A stretch of DNA of 52,707 nt. Source: Alphaproteobacteria bacterium. Its GTDB lineage: Bacteria > Pseudomonadota > Alphaproteobacteria > Rhizobiales > Xanthobacteraceae. Location of the stretch: contig JAJPHK010000186.1 in the NCBI GenBank assembly GCA_021325315.1, forward strand, positions 1 to 52,707, in the 5' to 3' direction. This document shows, in pieces, positions 16,731-51,393 of the stretch; position 1 is the first letter of the stretch; each line of letters starts with the position of its first letter. The translations under genes were made by a program, and so were the position numbers. The notes under the pieces are model-generated. The model worked only from the letters and a program-made list of their open reading frames with translations, had not been told where the DNA came from and did not search any database.

Positions 16731-16824
16731 CCGTCATGCCCGCACTTGTTGCGGGCATCCACGCCTTGAAAACCGCGCTGCAAAAAAGGCGTGGATGCCC
16801 GGCATAAAGCCGGGCATGACGACG
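16731..16824. repeat. Palindromic intergenic repeat, family A copy 1
   Basis: A 94-bp imperfect palindrome runs from CCGTCATGCCCG to CGGGCATGACGACGG. Inner arms ATCCACGCCTT and AAAGGCGTGGAT flank a variable centre. It belongs to the same family as 47556-47646 and 49448-49599. It lies between the convergent dusA and protease genes and could terminate both. Confidence 0.8.
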
Positions 16825-47555: not shown

Positions 47556-47646
47556 TGTCATGGCCGGGCTCGTCCCGGCCATCCACGCCTTAACAACATT
47601 GAGGCAATAAAGGCGTGGATGCCCGGCACAAGGCCGGGCATGACGT
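47556..47646. repeat. Palindromic intergenic repeat, family A copy 2
   Basis: TGTCATGGCCGGGCTCGTCC to CAAGGCCGGGCATGACG, with inner arms CCATCCACGCCTTA and AAAGGCGTGGATG. It is an uninterrupted member of the family also at 16731-16824 and 49448-49599. Confidence 0.82.
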
Positions 47647-47699
47647 GGTAAATGGCCTTTGCGTTGCAGCAGGCTCACGGCAGGGCTACATCTTTCTCC

Positions 47700-49436
47700 A
47701 TGAGCAAAGACACCCTCCGCCTCGCCATCGCACAGCTTAATCCCGTCGTCGGCGACGTCGGCGGCAACGCTACGCTCGCGCGCCGTGCGCGTGCGGAAGC
47801 GGTGAAGCAAAGCGCCGATCTCGTCGTCTTCACCGAGCTCTTCATCTCCGGCTATCCGCCGGAAGATCTCGTCTTGAAGCCCGCCTTCCAGGCGGCCTGC
47901 CGCGCGGCGGTGGAAGAACTCGCGCGCGAGACGAAGGACGGCGGCCCGGCGATGCTGCTCGGCACGCCCTGGCCGCAGGACGGCAAGCTCTATAACGCGA
48001 ACGTGCTTCTCGACGCCGGCAAGATCGCGGGGCTGCGCTTCAAGGTGGATCTGCCGAACTACGGCGTCTTTGACGAGAAGCGCGTCTTTCACGAAGGCCC
48101 GATGCCCGGGCCGGTGAATTTTCGCGGTGTGCGCATCGGCATCCCGGTTTGCGAGGACATCTGGAAGCCGGACCCGGTGGAATGCATCAGCGAGACCGGC
48201 GGCGAAATCCTGCTCGTCACCAACGCCTCGCCCTATCGCCGCGGCGTGATGATGGAGCGCCTGAACGTCGCGGTCCCGCGCGTCGTCGAATCCGGTCTGC
48301 CGCTCGTCTACGCGAACCAGCTGGGCGGACAGGACGAGCTTGTGTTCGAGGGCGCCTCCTTCGGCTTGAACGCCGACCGTTCGCTCGCGTTTCAGATGGG
48401 CGGATTCAAGGAAGAAGTCGCGCTAACCGAATGGAAGCGGGAGGGCGGGACGTGGAAATGCACCGCCGGCCCGCGTGAGAAATTACTCGAAACCGACGAA
48501 GCCGATTACAACGCCTGTATGCTGGGCTTGCGCGACTACGTGAACAAGAACGGCTTCCCTGGCGTCGTGCTCGGCATGTCCGGCGGCATCGACTCGGCGA
48601 TTTGTGCGGCGATCGCCGCCGACGCGCTCGGCCCTTCGCGCGTGCATGCGGTGATGCTGCCTTACAAATACACCGCGAAGGATTCCTTCACTGACGCCGA
48701 GGCCTGCGCGAAAGCGCTCGGCGTGCGTTACGACACAATCCCGATCGCGCCCGCGGTCGAGGGTCTGGAAGCGACGCTCGCTTCCGCCTTCAAGGGCGAG
48801 AAGCGCGACATCACCGAGGAAAACATCCAGTCGCGCGCGCGCGGCACGATCCTGATGTCGATCTCGAACAAATTCGGCCCGATGGTGGTGACGACGGGCA
48901 ACAAGTCGGAAATGTCCGTCGGCTACGCCACGCTCTACGGCGACATGAACGGCGGCTTCAATCCGATCAAGGATCTCTACAAGACAGAGGTCTATAGGCT
49001 CGCCGCGCTCAGGAACCGCTGGAAGCCGGAGAGCGCGCTCGGGCCTGCGGGCAGGGTCATTCCCGAAAACATTCTCACCAAGGCGCCGACCGCGGAGCTG
49101 CGCGAGAACCAGAAGGATCAGGATTCGCTCCCGCCATACGACGTGCTCGACGCGATCCTCGCCCGTCTCGTCGAGGGCGAGGATTCGGTCGCGGCGATCG
49201 TCGCCGACGGCTTCGATGCGGAAACCGTGAAGCGCGTGGAAAGGCTTCTGTATCTTGCCGAATACAAGCGCCGGCAGGCGGCGCCCGGCGTGAAGGTGAC
49301 GCGCAAGAATTTCGGCCGCGACCGCCGCTATCCGATCGTGAACAAGTTTCGCGACAACGGCGCGCCGCCCGCGAAGCCCGACGAGTCGCTCGTTTCCGGC
49401 GCGGTGCCCACGAAAAGCGAGGCGGTGGATTTCTGA
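47700..49436 (+). CDS. nadE: Glutamine-dependent NAD+ synthase
   Basis: Starting at 47700 gives 578 residues; an ATG at 47652 would extend into the spacer. The N-terminal nitrilase-type glutaminase domain has the catalytic glutamate, lysine and cysteine in FTELFISGYPPED, FKVDLPNYGVFDE and IPVCEDIW. The C-terminal synthetase has the PP-loop GMSGGIDSAICAAIA near residue 298. It amidates nicotinate adenine dinucleotide to NAD with ammonia channelled from glutamine. The domain order and length are typical. Confidence 0.94.
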   Translation: MSKDTLRLAIAQLNPVVGDVGGNATLARRARAEAVKQSADLVVFTELFISGYPPEDLVLKPAFQAACRAAVEELARETKDGGPAMLLGTPWPQDGKLYNANVLLDAGKIAGLRFKVDLPNYGVFDEKRVFHEGPMPGPVNFRGVRIGIPVCEDIWKPDPVECISETGGEILLVTNASPYRRGVMMERLNVAVPRVVESGLPLVYANQLGGQDELVFEGASFGLNADRSLAFQMGGFKEEVALTEWKREGGTWKCTAGPREKLLETDEADYNACMLGLRDYVNKNGFPGVVLGMSGGIDSAICAAIAADALGPSRVHAVMLPYKYTAKDSFTDAEACAKALGVRYDTIPIAPAVEGLEATLASAFKGEKRDITEENIQSRARGTILMSISNKFGPMVVTTGNKSEMSVGYATLYGDMNGGFNPIKDLYKTEVYRLAALRNRWKPESALGPAGRVIPENILTKAPTAELRENQKDQDSLPPYDVLDAILARLVEGEDSVAAIVADGFDAETVKRVERLLYLAEYKRRQAAPGVKVTRKNFGRDRRYPIVNKFRDNGAPPAKPDESLVSGAVPTKSEAVDF

Positions 49437-49447
49437 GTTATTTTTAT

Positions 49448-49599
49448 TGTCATGGCCGGGCTTGTCGCCCAAGTTGGGTTTACCCGACTTGGGCTTTCAA
49501 TATCTTTCGAACTCGGGCAAGCCCGAGTTAGTGCCATCCACGTCTTAGCGGCTTCAAGAAAGAAAGGCGTGGATGCCCGGCACAAGGCCGGGCATGACG
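49448..49599. repeat. Palindromic intergenic repeat, family A copy 3, interrupted by a double-hairpin element
   Basis: The ends (TGTCATGGCCGGGCT; GGCGTGGATGCCCGGCACAAGGCCGGGCATGACG) match copy 2. A block at about 49467-49531 splits the left arm and is made of two hairpins: GCCCAAGTTGGG-TTTA-CCCGACTTGGGC and AACTCGGGC-AA-GCCCGAGTT. A related double hairpin lies at 52514-52571. Confidence 0.75.
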
Positions 49600-49649
49600 A
49601 GTATGGAGAAGCGCCGTACTCAGCACTCGGCGAAGAGGAGGGCGCCTTG

Positions 49650-49802
49650 TTGGCCTGGATTCCTCGCGACGTCTGGCTTGCGGCGATTGCCGCCGCCGCC
49701 GTTCTCTTGGCCGCGCTCTACGAATTCATGCCGGTGCTCGCGGCGCTGCTCGCCGTTGCGCTGGTGAGCGCCGTCGTTGCAGTGATCGTCGGCCGTGACT
49801 AA
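49650..49802 (+). CDS. Small membrane protein, paralogue 1 of 3
   Basis: A TTG start (49650, or 49647) follows GAGGAGGG and gives 50 residues. After WIPRDVW the rest is nearly all hydrophobic, with one long or two short membrane helices around LYEF, ending VGRD. It matches the two next small proteins in the PxDV start, the central (Y/C)E(F/Y) pair and the length. No known family is recognised. No FNR/FixK box was seen before this copy, unlike the next two. Confidence 0.55.
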   Translation: MAWIPRDVWLAAIAAAAVLLAALYEFMPVLAALLAVALVSAVVAVIVGRD

Positions 49803-49865
49803 ATAACAAAAATATGATCCTACCCGGCACCGGCCGCGGGCGGTGAAATTAGTCCGTAAGACGTA

Positions 49866-49879
49866 TTGATTTGCATCAA
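49866..49879. promoter_or_regulatory. FNR/FixK-type box, perfect TTGAT-N4-ATCAA (copy 1)
   Basis: TTGATTTGCATCAA matches the FNR/FixK consensus in both half-sites. About 30 bp downstream is an AT-rich stretch (ATTAATAATAG) that could be the -10 region, the spacing of a class II activated promoter. The next gene is small membrane paralogue 2. Confidence 0.8.
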
Positions 49880-50023
49880 GGCGCAATGCCTTTGCTGCAA
49901 TGAAAATTAATAATAGCGAACTATGTTACTGGCATGAAAACGATGTTTCCCGACAGTCGCCAGCGTGTCGCCGGGCGTCTTTCCGGGCGCAAGCGCTCCG
50001 CTCCGCCCGCCGGTAAAGGCGCC

Positions 50024-50185
50024 ATGATCGACGCCGTTCCCGTCGACGTCCGCATTGCGCTCGTGGCTGCGGCGGTCTTGCTGCTCGCCGCCGCCTACGA
50101 ATATTCGCAGACGCTTGCGGTCTTTCTCTATGCGTTGATCGGCGCAACCTTCGTCGTTTCGGCGATGGGCCAGAGAGAAGTTTAA
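50024..50185 (+). CDS. Small membrane protein, paralogue 2 of 3
   Basis: ATG 50024, five bases after AAAGG, gives 53 residues beginning MIDAVPVDVRIAL. An in-frame ATG at 49934 would add 30 basic residues, but paralogy to copies 1 and 3 favours the short form. One or two membrane helices surround AAYEYSQTL; FLYAL and a terminal RE(V) are shared with copy 3. It lies behind a perfect FNR/FixK box, so expression under low oxygen is likely. No function is known. Confidence 0.65.
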   Translation: MIDAVPVDVRIALVAAAVLLLAAAYEYSQTLAVFLYALIGATFVVSAMGQREV

Positions 50186-50190
50186 ACTTT

Positions 50191-50204
50191 TTGATCTGGA
50201 TCAA
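50191..50204. promoter_or_regulatory. FNR/FixK-type box, perfect TTGAT-N4-ATCAA (copy 2)
   Basis: TTGATCTGGATCAA is a perfect FNR/FixK site. The sequence after it shares TTTGCTGCxATxAAAA with the region after copy 1, so the two promoters look duplicated. It starts six bases past the stop of paralogue 2 and precedes paralogue 3. Confidence 0.82.
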
Positions 50205-50315
50205 AAAACGGCGCGGCTTTGCTGCGATAAAAAATATCTTCTCTAGGGTCAACTTTCTTGCCGGAGCGGAAACGCTTCGGCAGGTTTTCCCGCTCTGGCG
50301 TCAGAAGAGGGCACG

Positions 50316-50471
50316 ATGTTCGAAGCTCTCCCGGCCGATGTTCGGATTGCGATTCTGGCCGAAATCGCCGTGGTGGTCGCCGCCGTGTGCGAATACTCAA
50401 CGACCCTCGGGATTTTCCTCTACGCGCTGGTCGCCGCGGTCGCTGTCGCCTCGACGATCAGGGAGGCGTAA
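50316..50471 (+). CDS. Small membrane protein, paralogue 3 of 3
   Basis: The 51-residue protein starts at ATG 50316 behind GAGGG. It aligns with paralogue 2: MFEALPADVRIAI, then AAVCEYSTTLGIFLYAL and the final TIREA. The bulk is hydrophobic and forms one or two helices. It is preceded by a perfect FNR/FixK box. Its stop abuts the end of the convergent fecR-domain gene with no gap. Confidence 0.65.
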   Translation: MFEALPADVRIAILAEIAVVVAAVCEYSTTLGIFLYALVAAVAVASTIREA

Positions 50472-51260
50472 TCAGAACGGCGGCCGGAACTGCAGCGTCC
50501 GCCTGATGCCTTCGCCGACGCCCTTGCCGATTTGTTCGGTCGTTCTGCCGACGTTGCGTGTCGTGTTCTCCACGGCCTTCGCAGTGCCGCCGACGACCTT
50601 GCCGGTGCCCTTCAGCATCAACGCCGCGCTCTTCGTGAGCGCCTGCGAGACGCCGTTCAGCCCGCGGAAGAGCTTCGCTGCCTCGCGCGCCGTCGCGTTG
50701 GTGAAACCGATCAGCGTCACAGCAAGCGCCGGATCGCCCGCGCGCACGCGCCGGCAGCCCGCGCCGGTGTTGCGGTTGCAGACCTCGGCGTCGCCTTCGA
50801 CGGTGGCATAGATCATCTTGTCGCCTTCGACGGAGACGTCGATCACGGTGCCGCGCACGCCGATCGTCGCGACCTTGGTCTCGATATGGTAGGCGGAATG
50901 ATCCGAGGTGCCGCTCGCGAAGCGCATCGCGCCGCGCACAAGCCGGATCGTCGCGTTTTGCGCCTTGTCGCCGTCGAAGATCATCTTGTCGAGCACGATT
51001 TCGGCATTCGGCCCGACGGTGAGCGTGGTGCCGTCGACGAATTTGATCTCGGTCGAGCCTTTCGCCGAGGTGTTCACCCGGTCGTCCTGCTGCACCGCAT
51101 CGTCCACGGAAAGCGAGGCGAGGGCGGCGCCGCGCGTGTAATTCGCGGAAGGAACGACGGACGTGGCCTTGCCGATCACGGGATCGGCGGAGGCGGGGCC
51201 CGCGAGAACAAGCGCGCCGCATGCCGCCAGGACCATTCGAGTGAAATACGAGAATCTCAT
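50472..51260 (-). CDS. Secreted FecR-domain protein
   Basis: Starting at 51260, behind AAGGGGA, gives 262 residues. A signal peptide (to PASAD) is followed by a FecR-type beta domain with VNTSAKGSTEIKFVDGTTL near residue 65 and VATIGVRGTVIDV near residue 130. A C-terminal tail rich in Lys, Thr and Gly (from about residue 200) is amphipathic. There is no membrane anchor or sigma factor gene, so it is not the usual anti-sigma FecR. It is a periplasmic or surface protein of unknown role. Confidence 0.82.
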   Translation of the reverse strand: MRFSYFTRMVLAACGALVLAGPASADPVIGKATSVVPSANYTRGAALASLSVDDAVQQDDRVNTSAKGSTEIKFVDGTTLTVGPNAEIVLDKMIFDGDKAQNATIRLVRGAMRFASGTSDHSAYHIETKVATIGVRGTVIDVSVEGDKMIYATVEGDAEVCNRNTGAGCRRVRAGDPALAVTLIGFTNATAREAAKLFRGLNGVSQALTKSAALMLKGTGKVVGGTAKAVENTTRNVGRTTEQIGKGVGEGIRRTLQFRPPF

Positions 51261-51393
51261 GCCGTCCCCTTGGAGAATCATAGCATTTTCGGTGGAGGCA
51301 GGCCAAAAAAGGGAACCCCACCCGGTGGTGCGCGTTATGTCAGCGACGAATGCCCGCGGGACCCTTGAAATGCTTGAAAAGTGGGAGCGACGA

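Follow-up and report, generated by a model that had tools for sequence, protein, structure and literature searches.

What are the three small reading frames that lie in tandem between nadE and a FecR-domain gene, and why do two of them stand behind perfect palindromes of the FixK/FNR type? The question divides into whether the frames are related genes, whether they are switched by oxygen, how widely they occur and on what their products could act. The window, i.e. the whole stretch of 52,707 nucleotides that was analysed, corresponds to contig C89 in the draft genome of a soil-type alphaproteobacterium; this assembly comprises 207 contigs totalling 2.94 Mb and is 94.7% complete. The trio is flanked on its 5' side by nadE (47652–49436, NAD synthetase) and on its 3' side by the convergent FecR-domain gene (50472–51281, minus strand), and neither neighbour points to respiration. 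The features of the locus are as follows.

49647–49802, plus strand: copy 1, a predicted membrane microprotein of 51 residues; TTG start after GAGGAGG; no FixK box
49866–49879, plus strand: perfect FixK/FNR box TTGATTTGCATCAA, 144 bp 5' of the copy 2 ATG
49880–49914, plus strand: stretch behind the first box (CTTTGCTGC, AT, AAAA), resembling that behind the second; putative −10 role from class II spacing
50024–50185, plus strand: copy 2, a predicted two-helix membrane microprotein of 53 residues; read from the alternative ATG, 49934, it would have 83 residues
50191–50204, plus strand: perfect FixK/FNR box TTGATCTGGATCAA, 111 bp 5' of the copy 3 ATG
50205–50239, plus strand: stretch behind the second box, resembling that behind the first, with the putative −10 region GATAAAAAAT; putative promoter
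50256–50284, plus strand: strong predicted stem-loop in the copy 3 leader, with a GAAA loop and then AGGTTTT (z −2.2)
50316–50471, plus strand: copy 3, a predicted membrane microprotein of 51 residues, from ORF, motif and paralogy analyses

Reading frames, paralogy and predicted fold

The three copies align end to end, with Met1, Pro6, Asp8, Val9, Ala12, Ala15, Ala22, Ala23, Glu26, Leu31, Leu35, Val44 and the terminal arginine invariant. The motifs listed in an earlier sequence-only reading of this DNA were found as described: PxDV (PRDV, PVDV and PADV in copies 1, 2 and 3, respectively), (Y/C)E(F/Y) (YEF, YEY and CEY), FLYAL common to copies 2 and 3, and a terminal RE in the same two copies (the ends being RD, REV and REA). 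Sequence identity is 51% for copies 2 and 3, 39% for copies 1 and 2 and 32% for copies 1 and 3. The corresponding alignment scores are 122, 83 and 65 against shuffle maxima of 62, 66 and 63 (82, 70 and 65 with the hydrophobic pattern kept; 1/5000 for copies 1 and 3). The likeness exceeds that expected from composition and hydropathy, and the three frames are true paralogues. The earlier description of three tandem membrane paralogues of about 50 residues is thus borne out, with the membrane placement being a prediction.

Purine-rich ribosome-binding sites are present at all three starts, and the GC content by codon position (0.67–0.76, 0.40–0.45 and 0.75–0.80) is gene-like and near the values for nadE and the FecR gene. 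For copy 1 the frame proposed earlier stands, but its start had been placed at 49650 and is most likely the TTG three bases before, at 49647, judging from the GAGGAGG that precedes it. For copy 2 the ATG at 50024 is preferred because the additional 30 codons of the disfavoured 83-residue version lack coding composition (GC 0.67/0.67/0.70 versus 0.68/0.40/0.75) and nothing in copies 1 or 3 corresponds to them. Copies 2 and 3 show an excess of synonymous changes (dN 0.34, dS 0.99, Fisher p 0.0013); when these substitutions are permuted under stricter conditions, p is about 0.065 for this pair and about 0.02 for copies 1 and 2. Purifying selection at the protein level appears moderately supported by these comparisons.

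AlphaFold models, built on an alignment of the three sequences, predict helices at residues 7–27 and 29–52 in copy 2 (pLDDT 88) and at 7–27 and 29–50 in copy 1 (pLDDT 90), with the helix break directly after the conserved E-(Y/F) in both. The hydropathy permits two short membrane segments with an acidic residue between them, and the fold is probably a membrane hairpin, the alternative being a single long helix with a kink. An arginine lies near each end in copies 2 and 3 and, by the positive-inside rule, suggests that both ends are cytoplasmic. A fold search of the predicted model against the PDB produced no match.

FixK-type boxes and their neighbours

Both boxes are exact TTGAT-N4-ATCAA palindromes, in agreement with the sequence-only reading, which had called them perfect. 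The window contains these two against 0.05 expected, and the whole draft genome contains eight, compared with none for a reversed control pattern; the probability that any two among eight random sites fall within 325 bp is 0.006. Three of the eight lie inside coding sequence (contigs C17, C26 and C188), and the five intergenic ones are those of the trio together with C7:1116, C7:24434 and C7:33280. Upstream of copy 1 the best box-like site has four mismatches.

Contig C7 encodes a two-domain NarK, and the ORFs after narK appear to resemble narGHJI in position and opening sequence; CBS-domain-like and Usp-like ORFs also seem to be present. Since the other intergenic boxes lie at narK and its neighbours, those of the trio are grouped with the set of this nitrate-respiration island. 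The same contig encodes a CRP/FNR protein (C7:29028–29762) with Crp/FNR domains above the Pfam cut-offs. Its best score is against the FixK model NF050806 (E = 2.6 × 10−66, below the strict cut-off of that model), and the FNR cysteine cluster is absent from it, there being no N-terminal cysteines.

In Bradyrhizobium diazoefficiens the FixK2 box is given as TTGA/C-N6-T/GCAA, and in the available portion of that study the boxes of FixK2 targets are spread over about 22–287 bp (PMC9104804); the box-to-ATG distances in the trio, 144 bp for copy 2 and 111 bp for copy 3, fall inside this reported spread. An AT-rich stretch behind the boxes occupies the expected class II −10 position and could serve as the −10 element. 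Taken together, the perfect boxes, the occurrence of the same box class at the nitrate-respiration island, the FixK-type regulator and the AT-rich stretch make low-oxygen control of copies 2 and 3 by FixK well supported by inference, and the earlier proposal of a low-oxygen system holds to the same extent. The stem-loop in the copy 3 leader lies just 3' of the presumed transcription start and is not common to copy 2; it may be an attenuator, a terminator or an mRNA-stabilizing hairpin.

Behind the two boxes some 30 bp can be aligned (GGCGC, CTTTGCTGC, AT and AAAA), and the local alignment of box plus stretch scores 30 against a shuffle maximum of 25. The sequence-only reading took this similarity to show that gene and promoter were duplicated together. 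The aligned stretch does exceed the shuffles, but weaker and partial look-alikes behind two C7 boxes of unrelated genes (24460+ and 33280−) leave co-duplication unproven, so that it is probable and the better reading rather than the sole one. A general extension of FixK promoters as the source of the stretch was set aside, since in relatives the motif shows no enrichment, following 3 of 84 box orientations against a background frequency of 3.1%.

Several further arrangements were observed around FixK boxes. The box that separates narK from a divergent DUF6455-like gene (a sub-threshold Pfam match; L003 637–1068 and 1256–4012 on C7) has parallels in relatives, where proteins resembling the DUF6455-like one are also found behind boxes (L076, L097 and L110). 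A perfect and a near-perfect box of the FixK type stand 26 bp apart before a gene for a small basic protein (C7:24434 and 24460; L004 3935 and 3961). At about C7:33068–33456 (L004 12569–12957) a perfect box separates two divergent small hydrophobic ORFs, which are candidates for further FixK-controlled membrane microproteins, unrelated in sequence to the trio; small hydrophobic ORFs behind FixK boxes thus occur at C7:33280 in this genome and also in a relative (L108).

Distribution and related systems

No homologue of the trio was found in Pfam, NCBIfam, the PDB, plasmids, viral contigs or the genome_contigs collection, the last of which was scanned twice (with an alignment headed by copy 1 and with copies 2 and 3). 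Nor did any turn up among 150 relatives or in genomes sampled from the family (392), the order (397) and the class (385), samples that overlap, amount to about 1,000 genomes and include only one from the same genus. Weak matches with E values of 0.005–0.05 were discarded, as they lie inside long reading frames or cover a model only in part and their frequency is about that of chance. A search for homologues with upstream TTGAT-N4-ATCAA sites, which had been suggested as a check on the sequence-only reading, yielded none in the collections searched, within which the trio is restricted to this lineage. In the genome of the same genus nadE and its upstream neighbour are kept (81% and 76% DNA identity), the trio is not found behind nadE and the FecR homologue sits elsewhere among other neighbours; the trio occupies a breakpoint region that is non-syntenic with the sister genome.

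Within the class of FixK-controlled small proteins, which is already known, the trio makes up a new family. Small genes activated by FixK2 in B. diazoefficiens include, in the available portion of the study, bsr6066, bsr7087 and bsl7992 (DUF2933) (PMC9104804). Like copies 2 and 3 of the trio, these are short genes, mostly of unknown function, behind boxes of the TTGA-N6-TCAA type and under the control of FixK, which in the trio is presumed. Unlike bsl7992, the trio has no Pfam match to DUF2933, and the likeness to bsr7087 and bsr6066 is by description only; nor does the available text describe the Bradyrhizobium genes as paralogues in tandem, each with a perfect box of its own, as copies 2 and 3 are here. 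A tentative scenario, possible but doubtful, is that these are young lineage-restricted helical-hairpin microproteins that arose or were captured here, became wired to FixK and were amplified with their promoter, which would add a layer of low-oxygen control at the membrane with no counterpart found in close relatives.

Proposed role and rival explanations

The reading that is preferred, with slightly better than even confidence, is that the trio encodes lineage-specific microproteins that act as modulators of a respiratory complex or of the inner membrane in which they lie, copies 2 and 3 being activated by FixK at low oxygen. As oxygen falls, a FixK-type CRP/FNR regulator would switch on two of the three tandem genes by binding TTGAT-N4-ATCAA at about −41.5, with copies 2 and 3 each transcribed from a class II promoter of its own. 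Each protein would insert as a short helical hairpin (predicted helices 7–27 and 29–52), its ends in the cytoplasm and the conserved E-(Y/F) at a tight periplasmic turn. The alanine-rich helix faces would most likely pack against a low-oxygen membrane complex or against themselves, and this packing could adjust the activity of the complex or the state of the membrane. A model for action on the membrane itself is YohP of Escherichia coli, a stress-induced membrane microprotein without catalytic activity, which differs from the trio in its length of 27 residues, its unrelated sequence and its link to starvation rather than oxygen (PMC12719787). Because no homologue was found, no partner can be deduced from a conserved neighbourhood; the putative nitrate reductase of C7 or the bd oxidase are possible partners.

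The strongest rival is that the copies are type I toxin-like membrane peptides, switched on by FixK at low oxygen to depolarize or silence cells and restrained by antisense RNA, since it was through small hydrophobic ORFs in tandem that such loci were discovered. Tandem duplication of this sort was among the search criteria for ZorO, and in general the membrane type I toxins are shorter than 60 residues (PMC8309996, PMC3919570), as are the hydrophobic copies of the trio at 51–53. The narrow distribution, shared with ZorO/ZorP, Ldr and Ibs, and the strong hairpin ahead of copy 3 would also suit a toxin, which is nevertheless judged unlikely. The trio differs from the named toxins in its dedicated activator boxes, in two predicted helices rather than one and in a conserved acidic residue in the core. 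An antisense RNA gene was sought by two weak tests, a σ70 consensus scan that gave no promoter-like site on either strand and a search of Rfam that gave no match at E values up to 1. Accessibility of the ribosome-binding site is ordinary in comparison with 34 other genes, and a leader that sequesters this site was dropped as a toxin signature. It is less probable still that genuine boxes stand here before ORFs that do not give functional proteins, being leaders, decaying frames or possibly regulatory RNAs. Their orphan status, small size and position in the breakpoint region fit this view, as does the borderline permutation support for protein-level conservation, whereas the end-to-end alignment of three frames of near-equal length, the retained motifs and ribosome-binding sites, the gene-like codon-position GC and the synonymous excess argue for proteins.

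The suggestion in the sequence-only reading that such proteins modulate oxidases or transporters found no specific support: ccoN gave no match in the draft genome, and the 5.4 kb fetched around the bd oxidase genes cydAB (C37; L131 2376–4778) contain no TTGA-N6-TCAA box. Both results also weigh against an accessory role in a terminal oxidase, as a CydX/CydX-like or CcoQ-like subunit, which is the least probable of the alternatives considered. The trio resembles CydX and CydX-like (DUF2474) proteins in being tiny, hydrophobic and, as predicted, membrane-located with a link to low oxygen; two-helix CydX-like forms are described from some CIO oxidase clusters (PMC5322542), and no cydX-like ORF of at least 25 residues directly follows cydB in this genome. 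However, there is no above-cut-off match in Pfam or NCBIfam, the trio lies outside any oxidase operon, between nadE and the FecR-domain gene rather than adjoining cydAB, and relatives ought to carry a subunit of so widespread an oxidase, yet none of those searched has a trio homologue.

Small membrane proteins controlled by FixK or FNR are recurrent and their role is mostly unknown. The proposed modulators would, if real, represent an orphan microprotein recruited to an oxygen regulon within a single genus, and the locus is a clean natural case, with two intact boxed copies beside one unboxed, in which promoter gain or loss and the divergence of copies are testable together. Copy 1 would have lost its box or never gained one and drifted in sequence, and may be read through from nadE. 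A dispersed palindromic repeat resembling GTGGATGCCCGGCACAAGGCCGGGCATGAC occurs at 16732–16822, 47557–47645 and 49533–49605 of the window and also at C7:68190–68259; one of its copies occupies the gap between nadE and copy 1, so that the promoter of copy 1 may have been displaced.
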